A stretch of DNA of 64,000 bases from Flavobacteriales bacterium. GTDB taxonomy: Bacteria; Bacteroidota; Bacteroidia; Flavobacteriales_D; Sanyastnellaceae. The DNA lies in contig JAIXWX010000033.1 in NCBI GenBank assembly GCA_027491075.1, positions 1 through 64,000 of the forward strand, written 5' to 3'. Made by a program: the position numbers and the translations under genes. Within the stretch, counting starts at the first letter, position 1. Each line of letters begins with the position of its first letter. Positions 41,829 through 59,155 of the stretch are shown here, in pieces. The notes under the pieces are model-generated. The model was given only the letters and a program-made list of their open reading frames with translations. It was not told the origin of the DNA and did not search any database.

Positions 41829-44477
41829 TTACTGCTTCATGATACGTGTGCTGGCTTTGTTCTCTCCATGGTACAACACCACAGTGTAATAACCACTGGC
41901 ATAATTCATCATATCCAGGGTAACAATGTTCACTCCTTCAATGGTAGTAAACTTGGTATTGTGTACCTCACGTCCCATCGCATCAATAACGATCATTCCA
42001 ACTTGTGCTTCCGCTCCACTGACAAAGGTCAAATCCACATTGCCCTCTGTCGGATTGGGGAACGCATTCAGTTTTTCAAAATTAGGAAGTACTTCTACTT
42101 CAATTTCGAATTCTTCATCAGCCACTTCTTGACCTTCACGGAAGGCGGTACCGCTTCTGCTTGCTCTAAGTGTATAGCATAGGGTAGAGTTGAACGCCCC
42201 TTGGAAACCATATACTTCCACACGATAGGTTCCAACCGGACCATTATTGAAGATGATGGCTTCGTTGGCTGTTCCGCTATTCTGAGAAATTCCAACCTGT
42301 ACATTGCTCGGATTCAATAGACGTACATCATAGTCCGCAGGAAGGTTGGTCATATCAATGCGAATATTGCGATTGCTCGTGGTGTTGCTAAAGCGGAACC
42401 AGTCGCGGTCAGTGGCAGTACCAATGCGCGCTGTAATATTCGTATTTACAGAAATAGATTTCGCTTGGCTGCTGCTATTGTTTGTTTCATAAATATCGGA
42501 ACATGCGGTCGCCGCTGTTGTGGTAAAGTTGATTGCTGCGCTGAACGCTGAAGTTCCTGCGCTGCAATTGGTGCGTACACGTGCGTTATAAGCCGTACCT
42601 GCAGTAAGACCGGTTAATACCAATGAATTGGTGGTTGCGTTTGCAGCGGTCCAAACAGTGGCTGTATTAAGCTTGTATTCTACGGTGTAAGAAACAGCTC
42701 CACTCACTGCTGTCCAGTTCAATGTAGCCCCCGTCGTTGTAATAGCAGAAGCAGCAAGTCCAGTTGGTACGTTGCAGCTAACTCCTTGAACGATCGTAAT
42801 GAAGTAATCTTCAACTTCTCCATATTGGAAAGTTTCACAAGCAGTTGGAGCCGCATTGTACTTCATTGCAACACGCATTCTTGTAGTTCCTAAAACTGCA
42901 GTAGAAGGAACAGTGAATGATCCACTCACAGCAGTGGTGCTTCCTGTTGTATTACCGAATACTTGCTCTCCTGCATCGAGGAAATCTAAATCGCCATTGT
43001 AGTCAATCCAAACTCTCCAAAACTCAGAGAAAGCAGTACCTGTATAACCTGGGGTTCCAGTAAATGTGTAAGAAGTATTGGTAGCCAAAGTAGTTCCCAA
43101 GGTTGCGCTAAAGTTTGCATAACCATTGTTGTTACCACTGGTGTTGCTAAGCGTGTTCAAAGAAACATTGTTTATCCATTCATCCACGGTGCTTTGTCCT
43201 GCTGACGCGCAGTATGTTGGCACGCAGCCAGTGGTTGTGAATGTAGAAGAGGCGCTAAAGTTACCAGAGCTTGTTGCAGAACAAACTGTTTGTACTTGCC
43301 ATTCGTAGCTTGTACACGTGTTCAATGCACTAAATGCAAAGGTGGTAGCTGTGAGTCCTGTCACGTTCGTCCAAGTGGTTGTTGAAGTTGGTCTCCAACG
43401 CAAGTTGTAGCTTTGTGCACCATTGACCGCAGCCCAAGTAGCTGTAGCACTTGAGGCAGTGAGAGATCCAGAAGTCAACCCCGTTGGTGTTGCGCAGATA
43501 CTCCCCACAGGACCGCATGCTGTGCTATTCAATAATGCTGCACGGAAACCTCCAGTAGCAAATAGTGCTTGCATTCTTGAAATTTGTCCATTGCTAAACA
43601 TATACATACACGCATCATCAGAGTAGTCCATGTAGTTCATGAACATGTCGCCGTTTGGTCCGTTGGTGCAAGACACTTTAGGGAAAACTGGACAGCCATA
43701 GTTAGGTCCGCCTGCATTCGGTGTATCACTCACTTGGTCAGAACCCGTGCAGCCTGTGCCATCGTCTCCCCAAATGTGAAACAAGTTGAGCCAGTGTCCT
43801 ACTTCGTGAGTAGCAGTGCGGCCCTTGTTGAAAGGAGCCGTAGCAGTGCCAATGGTTCCGAAGTATTGAAAGTCGCATACAACACCGTCAGTGCTTGCAG
43901 CACCACCAGGGAATTGAGCGTACCCCAAAATTCCACCACTGATATCGCATACCCAAATGTTGAGGTATTGATCACGTGACCATGCGTTTACTCCTCCAGT
44001 AGAAGAAGACTTCACTTGGTCGTTGGTACCAAACGCGGTAACAGAAGTTTGTGTTCTTGTGATACCCGTAGTAGGATTTCCGTTCGGGTCGATGGTTGCC
44101 AAGCAAAACTCGATATTGGCATCCCCTGCAAGGCTTGCAAATGCTGCAGGCACGTTTGCAACGTCCGCATTGAGTTTTCTGAAATCGGCATTGAGCACAT
44201 CGATTTGTGATTGAATCTGTGCATCAGAAATGTTCTCCGCTGTTGTATTCCAAACCACGTGCACGACCACTGGAATGGTAACTAGAGCGCGATCGAGACC
44301 ACCGCCCTGTTGAATAAAATCGTTGGTGAAATTTTCTATTTCCTGACGACGCAGTTCGAACTTGCTGTCGTTGGCTTTTTGATATTCAAAAGCCTCTTGA
44401 GTGCCGCACACTCTTTGAGCGAATGATGCTTGAAAAAGCATGGCCATTGCGCCCACTAAAAGTAAAACTTTCTTCAT
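41829..44477 (-). CDS. M43 (pappalysin/cytophagalysin-like) zinc metalloprotease with FN3, GEVED, PPC-like and T9SS type A domains
   Basis: Signal peptide, [15 protein letters not shown], two FN3-like modules, [12 protein letters not shown]-terminal [16 protein letters not shown]...[26 protein letters not shown]. Confidence 0.92.
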
Positions 44478-48192: not shown

Positions 48193-51100
48193 CTAGTTTA
48201 CTATCATTTTAACGGTTTCGCTCTTATATCCAAATTTAACCTCGATACTGTATACTCCCGAGGTTAAAGTTTGTCTTGGTCGAATCATAAACGGACTCCT
48301 TGATTCAACGATATAATTGTTTTGCTCGACCAATTTGCCAAGCATATCAAAAACCGTGATTTGAATGTTTCCTGGATCCGGAGTTAAATAGAAAAACTCA
48401 CCTGAATTTGGATTTGGAAAAAGCATTTGTGCGCTTGTAACTTCTTCTGTTATCAAGGACTTTGAAATGGAAGGCATTCCAGCAGCCGCAGCAATGCAAA
48501 GTAGTTGGTATCCGGAGCTAAACTGTCCGGTGCTGGAACTGAAGACAGGTCTAACTCTTACTCGATAAAATTCACCTGGCCCAATTCCCGGCACGCTGCT
48601 TAATTGTATAAATCGCGATGGGTTGTTGACGTTGACAAGCATTGCACTCGCTCCTACAGGTAGATCATTGGCGCTTACTTCTAAGAACTCCCATTGCCAA
48701 CCTTGAGCCCCACAAACATTGATGTCTGTTGCTATAAAAGATGACAAAACCCTTGTTGTCGGGCACCTGTCTATGGATCTTAGCTGAGCTATTGGAGGAG
48801 AGCCAATGGTAATACTGTAGTTAGGACTTACCACATTCACTTGAGTTACATTTCCCGCCGCGTCTGGAAGATTGTATATACACGAGTATATAGTATTATA
48901 CGTTGTTGCATATTGCAATCCATTAAAAATTCCAAACGGAAACTGCGTTCCTGAAGATGTTGCCGAATAAACATTCGGTCCGTTGGTCAATGTAATTGTG
49001 TAATTGGAACAAGCAATCCATCTCGCCTTAAGAAATCCGCATAAAGAAGAAAAATTCAATCCATTATCTGGTTGAGATGCTCTCAAGTGTTGACAGCAGC
49101 AAGTCACTGTGCCATTGGAGTTAACCTGATTTCCACGGAGTGCAAAGAAATAGGTTTGCCCTACCACCAAGTTACCAAACACCAATATCTCTTGACCCGA
49201 GCTTGTCTCATTCTCCGAAGCCAACAAACTTGTACCAGAAGCATCTTGAAGTTCAATAAGTATATCCGAAGCCGATGAAGAGGCCTGAATTCTCACTCCG
49301 TTAGACTGTGCGACAAACCTATACCAAACATCCTTTCCGCCGCCTAGAGCCACTGAAGAAAGTGCTTCTGGAGAAACCGTGGCATTTGTTAAGTTTGCTG
49401 AGAAGGAGTTGCAGGCTGGATATAAACTTCCTGATATCAATGTTGCGTTGCTTCTATTATCATTCGCAACACAAGGAGAAACGGGGACGAAAATTTCATC
49501 ATACGCAGCGCATCCCGCTGCATTAGAAACTACAAGATCGACAGAAGTGCTATTTGAGGTAATCCACTGAATGGACGAATTGGTACTTCCGGAAGGGAAC
49601 CAAGAATAAGAAGTAGCACCTGGGGAATTAGCTGTCATAACAGCAGTTGAACCGCTACAATAAGAAGAAGCAGAGGGCGAAATGTCGGCAGTGATTGGTG
49701 CGTATGCCAAGTCCACAACATTAGAAAAAGTACTCAATCCTGTTTGGCCGCACGTGCATTTACAAATAAAAGATCGGTTTTCAGATAATTCGTTGACCCA
49801 TACTTGCTGACCGATACCGACTAAATCGTCGGGAGTGAGTCCCACTAATTGATCAAACAGATTGCATGCTCCGGTGCTGCAAGTAATATCATACCACTCA
49901 TATACAAGGTCAGCGAATTGATACGTCTGATGAATTGAAAGCATAGCGCTGTTAACAGATCCACAAAGCTCATCTGTTGGGGAGTAGGCCAATAAATCCG
50001 GCGGACTGCAATTGCACGGAGCAATTAGATTCACAAATAAAGTTTGTGTTACAGATTTGCTTTCAATAACTCCTGTTGCCATATGAAGCATGAGAACCGT
50101 CAGCGTAACTTCTTTTTCTCCGGCATTCGCATAATAATGGTCTATGGCTTGAGAATTAGTAACGGTGCCATCTCCAAGAGTCCATTCCCTTGATACAAAT
50201 TGATAGCCTTGTTGAAGAGGTGTTGCATCCGTTAGATTTACTTGCAATCCACTTGTGGAGGCTGTAATGCTCGGATTCCAACCCCATGGATTCGGATTGA
50301 TAAAAGCACATTTAACCCGTATTCTTTTACATATTGTAGTGATTAGTGCTCCATTGCAGTACACCTTCAAACAAACTTTGTAAGCACCGCTTCCAGCATA
50401 ACAAACAGTTGGGTTTTGTTGATTACTTGTAGTATTGTTTCCAAAGCTCCATGCGAAAAGTAGATTAGCTGCATTGCAATTGGAAGGTAAGGTTGGAATG
50501 AATGTGCGGCAACAGCTGGAAGCAAAAATTTGAAAATCCGTAGGAGCACAGCACGGAGGAGGACACACGACACTCACTGTTTTACAGACCGAAGTATAAT
50601 ATACTTGTCCGGAAATGAGATCTATACAGCAGTCATAATGACAAACAGTATAGGTGCCTGTTCCTGGAAACGTAAAGCTGGCGGCATCTGTCGAGAAACT
50701 AGTTCCATTTATGCCGAAAACCCAATACTCACAACCATTGGGATTACCTTCCGGGGTGAGATCATTGAAAGAAACGGTGCATCCACTTACGCTAAAACTA
50801 AAGTCTGCGGCCGATGGGGTGCAAGGCAGACAAGCAATCGTTAGAGTGTCGCAGAAATCGTCCCAACAACGCGCGATACCTGGAGGTTGAAAGCAATCTC
50901 TGTAACAGATCGAATAAGTACCGGGAGGCAACGTATTAAAACAAAAATTCAATGTATCGCCAATCCCTCCTCCTACTGTGTTATTCGACATATCCGTAAT
51001 AGTCCAAATATTGCAGGGACTTGCCGGCCCGTCCAAAGTCAAATCAATAAATGAATAACAGCAATTGCCATTATCCACAGTTTGAAATTGAGCATTTGAA

Positions 51101-52581
51101 GGACAAGGGGTAACGCATCCAAGGCTACTGGCATTAATCGAAGTCGGTGCCAAGGAAAGTGCGGTCGATGTTAGCGTGAACGAAGCCGTATCTACGGGAG
51201 AAATTACTGGCAAAAAAGGTGAAACCAAAACAGTATTCGAAACAAAGTAACAGGGTGATTGCATAAGACCATCAGCAGTGGTAAGATGCAATTCATCCAA
51301 AGTTGCGGCATCGTCATAACCCACTAAATAATGAATAGGCATGGCAGGAGGCCTCGTTCTTGCCATCATTTTAGGATAATAAATTCGAGGGTGCGTAGTG
51401 GTTGAGTAAGTATCAATTATATTACTTGATGGAGTATAGTTTACTGATTGTCGAGGATATTGAGCAGAAGCCAATACAGTGCTGCTAATAACATCGTAAT
51501 GAAAGAGAAAAGGAAAGGTTCCGGTACTCGTTGTAGATCCGGTGGTAATCGTTTTATTCAGCGCATAACCTGCAATAGAAAGAATACTCGCGTTGCAGAT
51601 TGCCTCAAAAGTGTAGGCATAATAATCTCCGGAAGAAACAGTCAGCGTTTTAGTAACAGAAAGATCGAAATTACCTGTTTGGTCATCCATTTTGATGATG
51701 GCCATATCCCTGTTATCCGACTTATTTACCAGTTGATAGATCGCCCTAATGGAAGCAGCATCATCATGTGCTGCATCAGCACTTACAATAGTCTCGCCCG
51801 TTAAGTTGTTCCCCTCATATAGCTTCTTCCATTGTAAAACACCATTATAGTCCACCATAGCGGCTAGCACGGCCTGATCTCCATCGGCGGAAGTCCCACT
51901 CCCACCTACGAAGTAACCCGTCACGGCACACGCTTGTACCACGCTTGAAGCCATATCCCAGTCATTGGGGTTTGATCCTAATGGAGAGTCAAAAAATTTC
52001 TGCCAAAGAACATTTAAGTTCACATCCAACTTAGCAATGTAGGAGGACTTAGAATCAGAAGGACTGTATCCATTGGCTAAAAATCCGCAGACAACATAAC
52101 CTTGCACAAAGTCATTGTTACAAGGGTTGTCTGTGGTTGATATAACATGAAGAGCCGGACTGTTTTTCGTGACAGACGATAGCGCGATTCGCCTCTGATT
52201 TGTGACGACCAATGAATTGTTGATGGTCATAACAAATCCCACATCAAACAAACCTTCCTTTCGTTGACCGCATATCACGTATCCATTGCCGTTGATACCC
52301 CTATTAATATGCAGTACTTTTTCATCGGCAGTAGATCCAACTACTGTCTCATTCAAGACAGTACCACTTTGATCCACCTCCATCAAATGGATTTGCCAAT
52401 TTCCACCTTGAAATATAGAACCTGCATAAACCACTCCAGTGGAGTCAAACTTATGGGCGCAGCTATAATGGTCGTGATCTAAGTTATGTGTGTAAGTGGA
52501 TTGAAATTGCGCATTTACAAAAAAACTATGAAGCAGCATAAATGCCATCAGGGCAGTTCCCCAGAGAGTATTGGTGTTCAT
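48193..52581 (-). CDS. Giant secreted T9SS type A protein with Cys-rich PKD-like repeats
   Basis: 1462 aa; signal peptide; WSFGNNTTSNQQNPTVCYAGSGAYKVCLKV and WTLGDGTVTNSQAIDHYYANAGEKEVTLTV PKD-like motifs; C-terminus MLFPNPNSGEFFYL...LTSGVYSIEVKFGYKSETVKMIVN. Confidence 0.9.
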   Translation of the reverse strand: MNTNTLWGTALMAFMLLHSFFVNAQFQSTYTHNLDHDHYSCAHKFDSTGVVYAGSIFQGGNWQIHLMEVDQSGTVLNETVVGSTADEKVLHINRGINGNGYVICGQRKEGLFDVGFVMTINNSLVVTNQRRIALSSVTKNSPALHVISTTDNPCNNDFVQGYVVCGFLANGYSPSDSKSSYIAKLDVNLNVLWQKFFDSPLGSNPNDWDMASSVVQACAVTGYFVGGSGTSADGDQAVLAAMVDYNGVLQWKKLYEGNNLTGETIVSADAAHDDAASIRAIYQLVNKSDNRDMAIIKMDDQTGNFDLSVTKTLTVSSGDYYAYTFEAICNASILSIAGYALNKTITTGSTTSTGTFPFLFHYDVISSTVLASAQYPRQSVNYTPSSNIIDTYSTTTHPRIYYPKMMARTRPPAMPIHYLVGYDDAATLDELHLTTADGLMQSPCYFVSNTVLVSPFLPVISPVDTASFTLTSTALSLAPTSINASSLGCVTPCPSNAQFQTVDNGNCCYSFIDLTLDGPASPCNIWTITDMSNNTVGGGIGDTLNFCFNTLPPGTYSICYRDCFQPPGIARCWDDFCDTLTIACLPCTPSAADFSFSVSGCTVSFNDLTPEGNPNGCEYWVFGINGTSFSTDAASFTFPGTGTYTVCHYDCCIDLISGQVYYTSVCKTVSVVCPPPCCAPTDFQIFASSCCRTFIPTLPSNCNAANLLFAWSFGNNTTSNQQNPTVCYAGSGAYKVCLKVYCNGALITTICKRIRVKCAFINPNPWGWNPSITASTSGLQVNLTDATPLQQGYQFVSREWTLGDGTVTNSQAIDHYYANAGEKEVTLTVLMLHMATGVIESKSVTQTLFVNLIAPCNCSPPDLLAYSPTDELCGSVNSAMLSIHQTYQFADLVYEWYDITCSTGACNLFDQLVGLTPDDLVGIGQQVWVNELSENRSFICKCTCGQTGLSTFSNVVDLAYAPITADISPSASSYCSGSTAVMTANSPGATSYSWFPSGSTNSSIQWITSNSTSVDLVVSNAAGCAAYDEIFVPVSPCVANDNRSNATLISGSLYPACNSFSANLTNATVSPEALSSVALGGGKDVWYRFVAQSNGVRIQASSSASDILIELQDASGTSLLASENETSSGQEILVFGNLVVGQTYFFALRGNQVNSNGTVTCCCQHLRASQPDNGLNFSSLCGFLKARWIACSNYTITLTNGPNVYSATSSGTQFPFGIFNGLQYATTYNTIYSCIYNLPDAAGNVTQVNVVSPNYSITIGSPPIAQLRSIDRCPTTRVLSSFIATDINVCGAQGWQWEFLEVSANDLPVGASAMLVNVNNPSRFIQLSSVPGIGPGEFYRVRVRPVFSSSTGQFSSGYQLLCIAAAAGMPSISKSLITEEVTSAQMLFPNPNSGEFFYLTPDPGNIQITVFDMLGKLVEQNNYIVESRSPFMIRPRQTLTSGVYSIEVKFGYKSETVKMIVN

Positions 52582-52706: not shown

Positions 52707-55700
52707 CTATTCCACGAACAACTTAAAAGAATCTCTTTGATAATCTTTTATCACTTCAATATGATAAACACCGGATTCAAGTTTTGTGTAAGGCGCGATA
52801 CTCACTAATTGCTCTCCTTCGCAGACAAATCTATTTTGATATACCACTCTTCCTAAGTTGTCATAGAATCGCACATCGTTCAAGCCATTTGGAAGCATCA
52901 GATGAATAAGTTCACCATTATTCGGATTAGGAAATACGTTTGCCGAGACGAACTCTTCTTTATTGATGGTGGTTTTTCGGTATTGCGCAAGCAGCTCGTC
53001 TTCGACAGTCATATTCGCACTTCCTGCGACACAAAGCAATCGATAATTGGAGTGAAATGCTCCGGGACCGGAACTAAATACAGGACGAACCCTCACTCTA
53101 TAATACCCCCCGGGAATAAGACCTGGTACGCTACTCAATCGAATAAATCGGCTGGTGCCGGTTGGAGCTATTACAACTTGTGGAGATAATACGTTGTCAT
53201 TTGCATCTACCTGTAAAAATTCCCACTCCCAACCTGTAATGCCACACACCACAATATCAGTCCCAACAAATGAACCCACTGAGCGAGTGGTTGGGCATCG
53301 GTCAATTGATCTTAATTCAACAAGTGGGTGCTGATTAATGATTACAGAATAAGGAGGACTGACAACAACTGCTTGAACAGGGTTTCCCGCAGCATCCGTT
53401 TGATTAAACGTACTCGAAAAAGTTACCTGATATGCTGTAGCATATTGAAGACCTGGAAGAGCGCTGAAAGGTATTTGAGTGCTCGATGAGCTAGCCGAAT
53501 AGGTGTTAATGCCATCACTGAAGCTAACCGAATAAACATTCGCTCCTGTCCATCTGGCCTTTATAAATCCGCACAAGGAAGAGAAAACATTTCCATTATC
53601 AGGTTGCGATGCTCTCAAATGTTGAATACAATAAGTAAAGCTTCCCACTGAGGAAGTACTAAAGTTTCTTACAGCAACAAAATATGTTTGTCCTGCAACC
53701 AAGTTGTTTGCAATTAATATTTCTGAGCCTGTTGTAGTCTCATTCTCAGATGCCATTAAAACGGTACCTGCTGCATTCTGAAGTTCTAATACAAGATCGC
53801 AGGCTGCGCTGGATGCTTGAATTCTTGCTCCATTCGTTTGTGCTATAAATCGATACCAGACATCTTGTCCTGCGCCTGTAGGCTCGAGGGTAAGAGCTTC
53901 AGGAGAGTTACCCGCATTAGAAAGCGAAGAGGACAAATTGGAGCAAATAGGAAAACCACTCGCCGAAACCAAAACGGCCGCCGCACGGCTATCATTAGGC
54001 GGTGCATTGGAAGTGCATCCTTCATCAATTGCCGAATCACAATCGTTGTCGATACCATTGCCACAAATCTCCTGCGCTCCGGGATAAACAAGATTATTGG
54101 AGTCGTTACAATCTCCCGATGCTGCAGACCAACCTATTTGCGGAATCTCACAAAACAATTCCGGGAAACCCGCACCGAATCCGTCATTATCTCCATCAAA
54201 ATAATAAGTTAATGTAGGAAATGTGCATGTCCCATCATCTGCATTCGCAATTGGATTGTAATTGCAAGCAGATATGTCGGTGCATCCAGGATCACAGAGC
54301 CCACATGCACTGAAGCATTGCACATCAATCGTTTGATCAGTTAATACACTTACAATTCTGTTATATCCACCGAAACCATCATTCACCCCACAAAAATTCG
54401 GAACTGTTTCTGCACCTGGCCAATCATTACCATTAATAAATTTATACTGATAAAACTGCGCTTCATTAAGAGATAAAGTCACTTCATAAACACCATCTGC
54501 ATCGATATCCGTCATGGGAATACCGTTTGGGCTCCATTCCGGAAGTCCAGCAATTCCAAAGCTCCCCGCTAAATGAACACCATTAGGGGAAACAGTCATG
54601 TAACTCATATCGACCTGAAATGTGACCTCCTTTTGAGGAACACAATTGGTACAACTTCCAAAGCATACTTGAGGAAGCGTCAATCCTGTGCTTGGGGCGG
54701 TGAAAAATCGATTGGTAGATCCGTTGAAGCAACTACCCGAAGAAGGTTCTACTGATGCCCAGCTATTGCCATTTATAAACTTGTACTCGTAGGTCTGACC
54801 AGGCATTAAATTAAGCTGTACTTGATATACGCCATCTAGATTGCCATCGCCCATTTGAATGCCATTTGGACTCCAATTGGGATATCCATCACTTCCAAAA
54901 TTACCAGCTAAGTGAACGCCATTAGGAGAAACGGTGGTATTGAGCATATTCACCAAGAAGGTTACCGTGACAGGTTGTTGAACGGGAACACAATTACCGC
55001 AACTGCTAAAGCAAACAGTGTCAAGCACCATGGGAGAAGTTCCCACCGTTATCAATCTATTTGCTCCATTTCCACAAGGAGCTCCAATATTGTCTTCAGC
55101 ACCCGCAAAAGAATTAGTAATCACATATTTGAATTCATAGGTATAGCCTTCGGGTAAAAACATGGTTCTCTCAAACACATCATCTTGACCCGAATAAGCC
55201 ATCAACAATTCCCCGGCTACCCAATTTGAATATGAAAATGGTGTCGGCACGAGACCAAAATTTCCGGCCAAATAAACCTCATTCCCTGAATAGTTTTCGT
55301 TTGTTATATCCACCTTAAAGGTAACGGGAATAAGTTGCGGATTCCCTGAACATACCGCACATTGCATCCAACAATAAGAAGGTAAAACTAAAAATTCATT
55401 GGTTGTCATCACTTGCCTATTTCCATTTACATTGCATTCTATTGGCAGTAAATTCTCGTCTTGTCCCCAGCTATTACCGTTTACGAATTTGTATTGATAA
55501 ATAGTTGATGGCGTTAAATTCAAATCAACTTCATAAATGTTATCCCCTTCCGGATCGTTCATTACTATCCCACCGGGATTCCAGTTGGGATATCCATCAT
55601 TCCCAAAAGAACCGGCCAAGTGCACCCCGTTTGGAGACACGATTTGCCCGGTCATATTTACACTGAACCTGACAATAGAGGCATGTGACAAATAAGAGAA

Positions 55701-55736
55701 TAGCACCAATGGTACTAAAAGAAGGATTTTTTTCAT
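52707..55736 (-). CDS. Secreted T9SS type A protein with four N-terminal CBM-like repeats and a MopE-like metal-binding motif
   Basis: 1009 aa; four VTFxVxM...PNGVHLAGxFG...YEYKFINGNxW...CFxxCxxC units; GDCNDSNNLVYPGAQEICGNGIDNDCDSAIDEGC; C-terminal VFPNPNNGELIHL...LESGVYHIEVIKDYQRDSFKLFVE. Confidence 0.92.
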   Translation of the reverse strand: MKKILLLVPLVLFSYLSHASIVRFSVNMTGQIVSPNGVHLAGSFGNDGYPNWNPGGIVMNDPEGDNIYEVDLNLTPSTIYQYKFVNGNSWGQDENLLPIECNVNGNRQVMTTNEFLVLPSYCWMQCAVCSGNPQLIPVTFKVDITNENYSGNEVYLAGNFGLVPTPFSYSNWVAGELLMAYSGQDDVFERTMFLPEGYTYEFKYVITNSFAGAEDNIGAPCGNGANRLITVGTSPMVLDTVCFSSCGNCVPVQQPVTVTFLVNMLNTTVSPNGVHLAGNFGSDGYPNWSPNGIQMGDGNLDGVYQVQLNLMPGQTYEYKFINGNSWASVEPSSGSCFNGSTNRFFTAPSTGLTLPQVCFGSCTNCVPQKEVTFQVDMSYMTVSPNGVHLAGSFGIAGLPEWSPNGIPMTDIDADGVYEVTLSLNEAQFYQYKFINGNDWPGAETVPNFCGVNDGFGGYNRIVSVLTDQTIDVQCFSACGLCDPGCTDISACNYNPIANADDGTCTFPTLTYYFDGDNDGFGAGFPELFCEIPQIGWSAASGDCNDSNNLVYPGAQEICGNGIDNDCDSAIDEGCTSNAPPNDSRAAAVLVSASGFPICSNLSSSLSNAGNSPEALTLEPTGAGQDVWYRFIAQTNGARIQASSAACDLVLELQNAAGTVLMASENETTTGSEILIANNLVAGQTYFVAVRNFSTSSVGSFTYCIQHLRASQPDNGNVFSSLCGFIKARWTGANVYSVSFSDGINTYSASSSSTQIPFSALPGLQYATAYQVTFSSTFNQTDAAGNPVQAVVVSPPYSVIINQHPLVELRSIDRCPTTRSVGSFVGTDIVVCGITGWEWEFLQVDANDNVLSPQVVIAPTGTSRFIRLSSVPGLIPGGYYRVRVRPVFSSGPGAFHSNYRLLCVAGSANMTVEDELLAQYRKTTINKEEFVSANVFPNPNNGELIHLMLPNGLNDVRFYDNLGRVVYQNRFVCEGEQLVSIAPYTKLESGVYHIEVIKDYQRDSFKLFVE
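54282..55676 (-). repeat. Four tandem protein-level repeats of about 115 aa (starch-binding/E-set-like fold)
   Basis: Aligned by eye at aa 21-136, 137-254, 255-369 and 370-485 of the 1009-aa protein. Confidence 0.85.
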
Positions 55737-55854
55737 GTTGGTTTCGGTTTGGTAAAGTTGAACTAAAATAATAACAATTTCTTTTGATCTATATTAATTC
55801 TCACATGATTCTTAAATGATTCCTTATTACTTTCACCACCTAAAACTTTAACCT

Positions 55855-56667
55855 TTGCGCGGCCATTTATTTTTTCTTTTTCTGATCGTTTCAGCCCTTT
55901 CTCAAGCACAAGTTGGCGAAGGAGCGCGCGCTTCCGCACTCGCTGGCACTTCAGTTTGTCTTTCTGATGGTTGGTCAGTATTTCATAATCAGGCAGGACT
56001 CGCCCAGATGAAGGGTTGGCAAGTCGGTGCCTTTTTTCAAAATAGATTTTTAGTGGAGAATTTGGGAGACCGAGGCATCTACGGCGCAGGAAAAGTAGGC
56101 GCTGGTGTTTTCGCTGGATCGTATCAAAGTTTTGGAGTTCCTGGATTTAATCAGTCTCGCCTAGGTATTGCTTATGCTATTCCGTTAAATGAAAAATTTT
56201 CTATCGGAGTGCAAACCAATTACCACAGTTTACGCATTGCGGAAGGCTATGGTATTTCGAGAAGTTTTTCAGCAGAAGGTGGAATTATTTATCGCTTAAA
56301 TAATGCACTCATTTTGGGAGCGCATATCGAAAACGTGAATAGGCCCAAATTGTCTGAATTCTCTAACGAACGCATGCCATCCACCATTCGAATAGGTGCT
56401 GGATATATCTTTTCTGAAAAAGTTAAGTTGCTGGGGCAGGTTCAGCAAGAATTGAATCAAAAGTTACAAGTCAGCTCTGGAATAGAATACGATGTAGCAG
56501 AGTCATTGGTGGTTCGGGTTGGAGCTGCTTCACAACCCGGTTTGTGGACCTTAGGGTTTGGTTGGAAGAGCAAGCACATTCGCGCGGATATATCTTCCAC
56601 TTATCACACAATTCTCGGATTCACGCCTCAAATTTCCTTGGCATATAGTTCCGCAGGATTTCAATGA
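55855..56667 (+). CDS. PorV/PorQ-like outer-membrane beta-barrel protein
   Basis: Signal peptide; GEGARASALAGTSVCLSDGWSVFHNQAGLA; alternating beta-strand pattern; apparent TTG start. Confidence 0.75.
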   Translation: MRGHLFFLFLIVSALSQAQVGEGARASALAGTSVCLSDGWSVFHNQAGLAQMKGWQVGAFFQNRFLVENLGDRGIYGAGKVGAGVFAGSYQSFGVPGFNQSRLGIAYAIPLNEKFSIGVQTNYHSLRIAEGYGISRSFSAEGGIIYRLNNALILGAHIENVNRPKLSEFSNERMPSTIRIGAGYIFSEKVKLLGQVQQELNQKLQVSSGIEYDVAESLVVRVGAASQPGLWTLGFGWKSKHIRADISSTYHTILGFTPQISLAYSSAGFQ

Positions 56668-58745
56668 GCATTCGGGTAAAAATACTTTTGTGTGTTCTTG
56701 CTATTTCGGCAGGCAACGCCATGTATGGTCAAAGAGAAGATTTAGAAGTTAGTAAGCAGAACATCATCGAACAACGCATTGAGTTGATTGCATCATTGGT
56801 AGATGAAAGTGTTGATCTGGATTACACCAATCTGCTTGAAGATTTCAGTTACTATTTCGAAAACCCTATTGATCTCAACAAAGGTGACTTCGATGCGCTT
56901 CGAGAACTTTACTTGGTAAACGAAGTACAGATCAATGCTCTTCAACGCCACTTAGAAATGTATGGTCCATTAAGGAGCATTTTCGAGCTGCAAAGTGTAA
57001 ATCACTTCGATTTAAATACCATTCGACTCATTCAACCATTCATTACCGTTGGAGCGCCCAATCTTTTAAGCACATTTTCATGGAGAGACTTATGGAAAGA
57101 GGGAAGCCATGATTTGTTTTTGAGATATAGGAGAACCATTCAACAACAAGCAGGTTATTTACCCGATCCTCAAACGAGTGAGGCTCCTGCCTTTCTTGGG
57201 AGTCCAGATTATCTTTTTACACGCTACCGATTTCAATACAAAAAGAACATCATCGCTGGTTTTACTTTAGAAAAAGATGCAGGAGAAAGTTTAGAAAGAG
57301 GGCCTGATTTTTACAGTGCACACCTGTTTATTCGCAACAATACACGTCTTAAAGCATTGGCCATAGGCGATTTTCAAGCACAATTCGGACAGGGACTCAC
57401 TTTTTGGAATGGCTTGGGGTTTGGCAAATCTCCTTTCGTGATGAATACCAAAAGAAACGCGAATGGACTCAGACCCTATACTTCCGTAAATGAAGCGCTT
57501 TTTTTAAGAGGCGGTGGAGCCACCATCAAGTTGGGAAAGTTTGAATTGACTGCATTATATAGCAATAAAAACATCGATGGAAATCGAGTAAACGCTGTAG
57601 ATTCTGCGGCGGTAGACGATGGTTTGGTTGTATCAAGTCTTCTATTAAGCGGTCTGCACCGTACGCCGAATGAATTAGCAGATAAGGGTGCCGTAAACGA
57701 ACAAGTTGGGGCAGGGAATATCAAGTATCAAACACGCACGTTTAGTGCTGGGCTTATTGCATCTCACACTGTATATAGTGCGGCGGTTACCCCAGATCAA
57801 GCGCTGTATCAGATCAATCGCTTTAGTGGAAAAACTGCAACAAACATTGGTCTTGATTATCAAAAGGTCTTTCGTAATTTCAACTTATTTGGTGAAACAT
57901 CGCGCAGTGCAAATGGTGGATTTGCCACATTGAATGGGATTGTTGGCTCTCTTCATCCACGTTTATCGGTGAGCGTCCTGCAACGTTGGTTTAGTGATGA
58001 TTTTCAAACGCGCTACTTCAATGTTTTTAGTGAGAATACCATTCCTCAAAATGAGAGAGGTGTTTTCGCAGGATTTGAAGCCAACATTGCAAAAGGCTGG
58101 AACTTGACTGCCTACACCGATCAGGTGCGTTTCCCATGGCTCAAATTTAGAATTGATGCTCCGAGTCGATTGAATGAGAATTTCATTCAATTGAATTATA
58201 AGCCCGACAAGAAGCAAGATTTCTACGTGCGATACCGCATCAGAGAGCGAAGCATCAATGCTGGAGATGAGATGTCACGTATCGACTTTACTATCCCAGA
58301 ACGCATTCAAGAAATTCGATTGAATGCCATCTATCAACCTCATCCCAATTTACAAATGCGTTCGCGTGCAGAATGGCGCATTTATCAGCGAGAAAATCAA
58401 GGTGTACAAAGGGGGTATCTCGTTTATCAAGATTTTATTTGGAAAAAACAAGGATCCAAAATCAGTTTCAATACCCGTTATGCCATCTTTAATTGTGCTG
58501 ACTTCAATACCAGAATTTGGGCGTATGAGTCGGACGTTTTATTTGCCTTTAGCATTCCCGCCCACAGTGGTTTGGGGACTAGAGCCTACGCCATGATCAA
58601 ATGGGACATCCGCAGAGGCATGGATTTGTGGGTTCGTTATGCCCAGTGGGTTTATACCGATCGTCAGGAAATAGGATCGGGAAATACATTAATTGAAGGG
58701 CAACGAAGAGGGGATTTGACCGTTCAGTTGCGCTATCAATTTTAA
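56664..58745 (+). CDS. Helix-hairpin-helix (ComEA-like) domain fused to a predicted outer-membrane beta-barrel
   Basis: NPIDLNKGDFDALRELYLVNEVQINALQRHLEMYGPLRSIFELQSVNHFDLNTIRLIQPFI, then amphipathic strands to a terminal aromatic residue (LTVQLRYQF). Confidence 0.8.
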   Translation: MSIRVKILLCVLAISAGNAMYGQREDLEVSKQNIIEQRIELIASLVDESVDLDYTNLLEDFSYYFENPIDLNKGDFDALRELYLVNEVQINALQRHLEMYGPLRSIFELQSVNHFDLNTIRLIQPFITVGAPNLLSTFSWRDLWKEGSHDLFLRYRRTIQQQAGYLPDPQTSEAPAFLGSPDYLFTRYRFQYKKNIIAGFTLEKDAGESLERGPDFYSAHLFIRNNTRLKALAIGDFQAQFGQGLTFWNGLGFGKSPFVMNTKRNANGLRPYTSVNEALFLRGGGATIKLGKFELTALYSNKNIDGNRVNAVDSAAVDDGLVVSSLLLSGLHRTPNELADKGAVNEQVGAGNIKYQTRTFSAGLIASHTVYSAAVTPDQALYQINRFSGKTATNIGLDYQKVFRNFNLFGETSRSANGGFATLNGIVGSLHPRLSVSVLQRWFSDDFQTRYFNVFSENTIPQNERGVFAGFEANIAKGWNLTAYTDQVRFPWLKFRIDAPSRLNENFIQLNYKPDKKQDFYVRYRIRERSINAGDEMSRIDFTIPERIQEIRLNAIYQPHPNLQMRSRAEWRIYQRENQGVQRGYLVYQDFIWKKQGSKISFNTRYAIFNCADFNTRIWAYESDVLFAFSIPAHSGLGTRAYAMIKWDIRRGMDLWVRYAQWVYTDRQEIGSGNTLIEGQRRGDLTVQLRYQF

Positions 58746-58750
58746 AAAAA

Positions 58751-58780
58751 AGAGAAGCCTGTCGTACGACAGGCTTCTCT
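58751..58780. terminator. Bidirectional terminator, perfect 30-bp palindrome between convergent genes
   Basis: AGAGAAGCCTGTCGTACGACAGGCTTCTCT flanked by an A-tract at left and GGATTTATTTG at right. Confidence 0.88.
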
Positions 58781-58816: not shown

Positions 58817-59155
58817 CTATGTCTTTTGAAATTTAATCGTCTTCACCTTTCCACTATCAGTGGTAATTTGTACAATGTAGATTCCTCGTCTCAAAGATTC
58901 GAGCATATCTAGACGCACCGCTGTGCATTCCTCCCCTCTGGTATCGGGTCTGAATTGCAATACCGTTTTTCCAGTCAAGTCTTTGACTACCAAATTAAAA
59001 CCTTCCGTCATTGGTTCCTCAAACGTAAGAAACGCTTTGGATTCAACTGGGTTCGGTGTAATGGATGCAGTAGTCACTGGATGGCCCGATTGAGCCATGA
59101 GTGCACCGCTTGTAATAAGGGTGGTAAATAAGAAAAGTAAAAGTTTTTCCTTCAT
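58817..59155 (-). CDS. Mini-protein: signal peptide plus T9SS type A sorting domain only
   Basis: 112 aa; MKEKLLLFLFTTLITSGALMAQ; ASITPNPVESKAFLTF...LVVKDLTGKTVLQF...LRRGIYIVQITTDSGKVKTIKFQKT. Confidence 0.85.
   Translation of the reverse strand: MKEKLLLFLFTTLITSGALMAQSGHPVTTASITPNPVESKAFLTFEEPMTEGFNLVVKDLTGKTVLQFRPDTRGEECTAVRLDMLESLRRGIYIVQITTDSGKVKTIKFQKT

Follow-up and report, generated by a model that had tools for sequence, protein, structure and literature searches.

In type IV pilus competence, DNA crosses the outer membrane by the secretin (PilQ/ComQ) route. P. gingivalis is naturally competent and requires ComEA, ComEC and ComF; how DNA enters its periplasm has been stated to be unclear, with neither a T2SS nor a T4SS identified and no part played by the conjugation pilus (PMC11532111). 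In Riemerella anatipestifer, RA0C_RS04915 and RA0C_RS04920, a receptor-like outer-membrane barrel and a DUF5689 protein, are essential for transformation (PMC8459023). The T9SS offers a further comparison: its PorV-type shuttles work with the large barrel SprA (PMC12618676, PMC10994853), and porD is another of its genes (PMC8754138).

Here we describe a two-gene unit, A-B, found in a window of 64,000 nucleotides, the whole stretch of DNA that was analysed. The step proposed for protein B, passage of DNA across the outer membrane, is identical to that of PilQ/ComQ, but the secretin is a ring whereas B would be a single-chain 24-strand barrel. Like RS04915/RS04920, A-B is a candidate outer-membrane DNA-uptake pair of the same phylum, and likely relatives of RS04915/RS04920 show a tendency to occur in its absence, although some genomes carry both. 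The two pairs nevertheless belong to different protein families; neither A nor B matches Plug/CarboxypepD_reg or DUF5689 (Pfam), and essentiality was demonstrated for the R. anatipestifer pair, whereas the role of A-B is proposed from sequence. The SprA-PorV translocon, like A-B, combines a large barrel with a PorV-type barrel; SprA, however, has ~2400 aa against 693 aa and 24 predicted strands for B, and B also occurs without T9SS. Finally, the N-terminal domain of B is homologous to, and in register with, ComEA / HHH_3 (PF12836). Unlike ComEA, it is fused to a predicted 24-strand barrel and has degenerate DNA-contact turns, and the genome encodes a separate ComEA-like protein. We found no description of A-B in the open-access literature, which was the scope of our search; one may exist in subscription papers or preprints.

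Organization of the A-B unit

The features of the unit are collected in Table 1. A preliminary description had proposed two genes overlapping by 4 nt, and both open reading frames, with the ATGA that joins them, were recovered. The TTG of gene A is the earliest possible start downstream of an in-frame TAA at 55849-55851. Because the flanking genes on both sides run in the opposite direction, A-B is a free-standing two-gene unit. The hairpin downstream of B is terminator-like on both strands, which fits an intrinsic terminator closing the unit. Automatic annotation by family model would name neither gene from PF12836 or NF033709, since the scores of B (19.5 bits, PF12836) and A (58.7 bits, NF033709) both lie below their cut-offs.

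Table 1. Features of the A-B unit (positions in the window)
Feature	Position	Strand	Basis or description
Gene A	55855..56667	+	ORF, 270 codons, TTG start; PorV/PorQ-superfamily outer-membrane protein
Gene B	56664..58745	+	ORF, 693 codons; signal peptide, degenerate HhH and predicted 24-strand barrel
ATGA overlap, A stop / B start	56664..56667	+	Read from sequence
ComEA-type HhH region of B, residues 67-128	56862..57047	+	PF12836; residue table; alignment with L142
Predicted 24-strand barrel of B, residues 148-692	57105..58739	+	DSSP elements of AlphaFold model
Invariant motif GDFQAQFGQGL, B residues 235-245	57366..57398	+	Invariant alignment columns; lowest-entropy stretch
Hairpin of intrinsic-terminator type, 3' of A-B	58751..58780	.	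-24 kcal/mol, z -6.4

Convergent with B at 58817-59155 (-) lies a gene for a 112-aa protein consisting of a signal-like start, a T9SS sorting domain (PF18962, 30.6 bits) and little else; a 111-aa relative sits downstream of B at another locus, L003. Upstream of A-B, three genes on the minus strand (41829-44477, 48193-52581 and 52707-55736) encode proteins of 882, 1462 and 1009 aa with PF18962 matches, that of the 1009-aa protein falling just under the cut-off. These three probably form a T9SS cargo cluster.

Protein A is a PorV-like barrel

Protein A has a signal-like start. Its AlphaFold2 model, built from an alignment of 56 relatives, has a pLDDT of 93.5 and predicts a 14-strand FadL/PorV-type barrel with an N-terminal plug. 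The best fold match in the PDB was chain F of the T9SS translocon entry 6h3i (TM 0.79 by query length), which we take to be PorV and which shares both the 14 strands and the plug; FadL-family barrels came next. The NF033709 (PorV/PorQ) model gave 58.7 bits (E 6.8e-16) against a curated cut-off of 90, which the match at locus L172 likewise failed to reach (53.5 bits), and the T9SS PorV equivalog model NF033710 gave 19.7 bits against a threshold of 250. The designation of A as PorV-like in the preliminary description is thus borne out by fold and family, though at a score short of the curated cut-off. PorV acts beside a far larger barrel, and A, with such a barrel encoded next door, would do likewise. 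Unlike PorV, A has only 270 aa, a sub-cut-off score outside the T9SS equivalog, and B in place of SprA as its partner. Membership of the BAM complex, whose subunit BamG is FadL-like, was considered but set aside, as BamG and BamH are described as separate subunits universal in Bacteroidota (PMC12611786).

Protein B is predicted to be a 24-strand barrel with a periplasmic HhH domain

Protein B begins with a signal-like start followed by the HhH stretch and ends in F, a residue conserved at the C terminus of 47 of 64 aligned relatives. In its AlphaFold2 model (alignment of 64 relatives, pLDDT 87.6), an N-terminal helix leads into the HhH bundle, and 24 strands, counted from DSSP, follow. Turns joining even to odd strands, on the predicted periplasmic side, have 2-5 residues, and the alternate loops on the other side have 3-40. 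Such an arrangement is typical of a barrel whose two ends are both periplasmic, with the HhH in the model placed beneath the pore, and the prediction supports the earlier proposal of a periplasmic HhH domain joined to an outer-membrane barrel. The best-conserved stretch, GDFQAQFGQGL, is predicted to lie at the outer end of strand 5, where the longest outer loop starts.

A sequence search of the PDB with B gave no match (best E 0.23), and a fold search gave no close one: the best barrel was MtrB (E 6e-13, TM 0.38), and the other leading matches included TonB-dependent receptors, BtuB and AlgE. At TM values of only ~0.25-0.40 we take these matches to mean 'barrel' and not kinship with MtrB, BtuB or AlgE. 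Apart from the weak HhH match and other hits below threshold, no Pfam or NCBIfam family model covers B; sub-threshold Pfam matches to DUF3383 and Endonuclease_NS within the barrel were dismissed as chance.

The HhH domain has ComEA ancestry and degenerate DNA-contact turns

The preliminary description had argued for DNA uptake from the DNA-binding properties of ComEA-type HhH domains. The HhH of window B does not reach the PF12836 gathering cut-off (19.5 bits against 27), while three relatives do (L105, L151 and L161); the deep members L105 and L161 score 56.9 and 56.4 bits, with a TIGR01259 match at E 1.8e-9, and judged by its sequence the HhH of such deep members is an ordinary ComEA-type domain. 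The GhG turns that contact DNA are another matter. Among 157 rows of the B-family alignment, a count that includes duplicate rows from a single genome, GhG was found in hairpin 1 of none and in hairpin 2 of 17, including some deep members; window B has it in neither hairpin, carrying YLVNE and NHFDL instead. Conservation of the HhH domain (mean entropy 2.11 bits) is about equal to that of the barrel (1.97-2.32 bits).

The B family is in register (E 0.0019) with a ComEA-like protein encoded elsewhere in the window's genome, L142 (G000:C14:193997). This HhH protein has 235 aa, a hydrophobic segment near its N terminus and LPWIGGKLA in hairpin 1; it scores 64 bits against PF12836 and is likely a true periplasmic DNA receptor. 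The argument from a DNA-binding HhH therefore fails on the contact residues, and is weakened further by the presence of L142. We infer that in the window's lineage a DNA-binding domain has turned into a docking domain.

A and B are paired across Bacteroidota

By sequence search B was detected in 152 of 198 Bacteroidota genomes, nearly always in single copy. By profile the figure is 176 at E 0.001, weak matches included, and by our count 150 at E<1e-25. B is absent or weakly matched in five families (f6, f5, f23, f19 and f28), and the same holds for some f4 genera and, within f3, for genus g19. Family f6 is probably Flavobacteriaceae, to judge from its DUF5689 pair.

In a hand tally of two profile searches, which left out the T9SS-less family f16, A (own profile, E<1e-20) was found in ~96 of 107 genomes with B as opposed to 2-3 of 42 without it. 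At 91 of 109 loci examined, A immediately precedes B in the same orientation, an adjacency far beyond chance, and 36 of these 91 pairs have the 4-nt overlap seen in the window. A and B thus co-vary across the phylum, and their pairing is real and wider than the preliminary description had it. One genome in which B was undetected, G066, carries an A-like gene (C77:91328-92077) whose reading frame contains a TAG, possibly an A decaying after loss of B.

A-B precedes comEC throughout one family

In family f3 we searched 121 genomes for comEC, assigned by PF03772 and DUF4131, and inspected the DNA upstream of 70 loci. In 59 of these, comEC follows B immediately and in the same orientation; in 6 others B is within ~1.3 kb upstream (or its ORF was called over-long), and in 5 B was not seen. 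The arrangement recurs in 20 of 21 genera, in the order A-B-comEC with genes touching or overlapping (B-comEC gaps are typically -4, -1 or +2 to +6 nt), even though ComEC identity within the family falls as low as ~30%. In the exceptional genus, g19, comEC adjoins a gene of 113 aa that in genus g17 sits upstream of A-B. Both A and B are missing between this gene and comEC in g19, most simply through joint loss.

Beyond family f3, the B flanks scanned, up to ~6 kb, contained no comEC. Operonic linkage of A-B to a natural-transformation gene is accordingly a feature of 20 f3 genera and of none elsewhere scanned and, being confined to one family, represents a single long-kept linkage and not repeated evidence. 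DprA, ComF, RecA and ComM occurred near B only as isolated cases among the loci scanned; three of the scanned B flanks contain ComM (YifB) and one contains recA (L005, L051, L027, L160). Co-occurrence of B with comEC, which the preliminary description had put forward as a check, was determined and is uninformative, as comEC is near-universal (197 of 198 genomes). DNA uptake itself, the conclusion of that description, is favoured by the f3 operons; the HhH-based reasoning that led to it is not.

Neighbouring genes in other lineages

Where porD was found near A-B, it lay divergently upstream in 17 of 18 loci, from many families, including distant lineages (L149-L163, L178-L182). The assignment rests on a DUF4835 protein that scores 292.7 bits against NF052317 (T9SS_PorD; cut-off 170), and one promoter region may serve both porD and A-B. 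In the window's relatives the neighbours gave no functional lead, being mostly PurE, PurK, Lgt, proline dehydrogenase and NAD synthetase. At three f4 loci (L176, L177, L189), B is followed on the same strand by genes for a TonB-receptor-like protein (1007-1089 aa) and a protein of 469-494 aa, both homologous between L176 and L177; these are possible extra parts of the system.

Partial complementarity with the DUF5689 pair

In most DUF5689 loci examined, the DUF5689 protein stands beside a protein of 850-960 aa, and this pair appears to be the counterpart of R. anatipestifer RS04915/RS04920. In the phylum sample it was present in nearly all class members lacking B. A larger sample of the class, tallied by hand, placed it in ~39 of 197 genomes with B and 25 of 49 without, and the many genomes with both weaken any strict mutual exclusion. 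Mapped on a tree of ComEC from 56 genomes, the state of B changes 7 times and that of the DUF5689 pair 8 times; independent contrasts averaged 2.6 in opposite directions and 0 in the same direction (p 0.25, with few contrasts). Complementarity is therefore suggestive only, partial and not significant. Some genomes, those of genus g19 among them, keep comEC with neither A-B nor the DUF5689 pair.

Discussion

With moderate confidence, we propose A-B as a candidate outer-membrane DNA-uptake channel for pilus-independent competence in Bacteroidota. The two-barrel unit would carry DNA over the outer membrane during natural transformation, replacing the pilus/secretin route. B, as a wide 24-strand barrel, would form the pore. 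Its periplasmic HhH would descend from a ComEA-type DNA-binding domain and, in the window's lineage, would more likely dock the pore to periplasmic partners (the ComEA-like protein, ComEC) than bind DNA. A would serve as the membrane partner of B, whether as gate, as assembly partner, or as holder of a surface receptor in the way that PorV serves SprA. Several observations point in this direction: the A-B-comEC operon has been kept through f3 despite the divergence of ComEC; A and B are jointly absent beside comEC in g19; deep members have a ComEA-like HhH, and the B family is in register with the genome's ComEA-like protein; A and B co-vary, and the DUF5689 pair tends to occur where they are missing; and the outer-membrane step is unexplained in competent P. 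gingivalis (PMC11532111). Against it stand the restriction of comEC linkage to one family, the loss of most GhG turns, the partial nature of the DUF5689 complementarity, the retention of comEC without either system in g19 and others, and the divergent T9SS gene porD that usually adjoins A-B in other lineages. Most A-B carriers, moreover, have no known competence.

One alternative is a different cargo. A-B might move a polysaccharide or lipid, or form an MtrB-like electron conduit, with the HhH as a structural docking element and the comEC operon a bystander. Loss of the HhH DNA contacts would fit, as would the identity of the best PDB barrels (MtrB, TonB-dependent receptors, AlgE), and so widely kept a gene could be housekeeping. 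The fold similarities, however, are too low to establish homology, partner genes from such pathways do not recur consistently near A-B (neighbours identified outside f3 are mostly unrelated housekeeping genes), and a bystander fits poorly with an operon retained over 20 genera; we regard this reading as unlikely. Still less probable, in our estimation, is direct binding of incoming DNA by the HhH where the pore opens into the periplasm, in the manner of ComEA. Its ancestry, the PF12836 matches and the residual GhG in hairpin 2 speak for such a role, but hairpin 1 has lost the turn in every row of the family, both turns are gone in the window and its lineage, and the genome encodes a further ComEA-like protein (64 bits against PF12836).

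The porD neighbour and the PorV-like fold of A raise the question of whether A-B is instead a satellite of the T9SS, in which A would act like PorV, as a shuttle or carrier, and B would be a second translocon or docking barrel for T9SS cargo, given that shuttles of this type partner a large barrel in SprA. Consistent with this, A is not adjacent to B in the five members examined of the T9SS-less family f16, nor in the T9SS-less genome G002. On the other hand, neither the 43 f16 genomes nor G002 have SprA, yet all of them keep B, and SprA is kept without A-B in f6, f5 and f3 genus g19. Since each occurs alone, neither B nor the T9SS needs the other, and A-B does not show the pattern of a T9SS component, which would be found only and always with SprA/Sov. 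Strict tracking of the T9SS by A is likewise weakened by at least eight f16 genomes that retain an A-like gene elsewhere. A could serve T9SS cargo, but we consider the satellite role of the unit as a whole improbable.

The passage of DNA over the outer membrane in Bacteroidota is an acknowledged gap, for which the phylum-wide, usually single-copy A-B supplies a specific candidate gene. More tentatively, A-B is possibly a general outer-membrane DNA translocon of Bacteroidota, a PorV-like-gated barrel with an HhH docking adaptor that has been replaced by the receptor/DUF5689 pair in Flavobacteriaceae-like lines. If the proposed function is correct, A-B would represent a new DNA-import architecture and a route for the spread of genes in gut, oral and aquatic bacteria.
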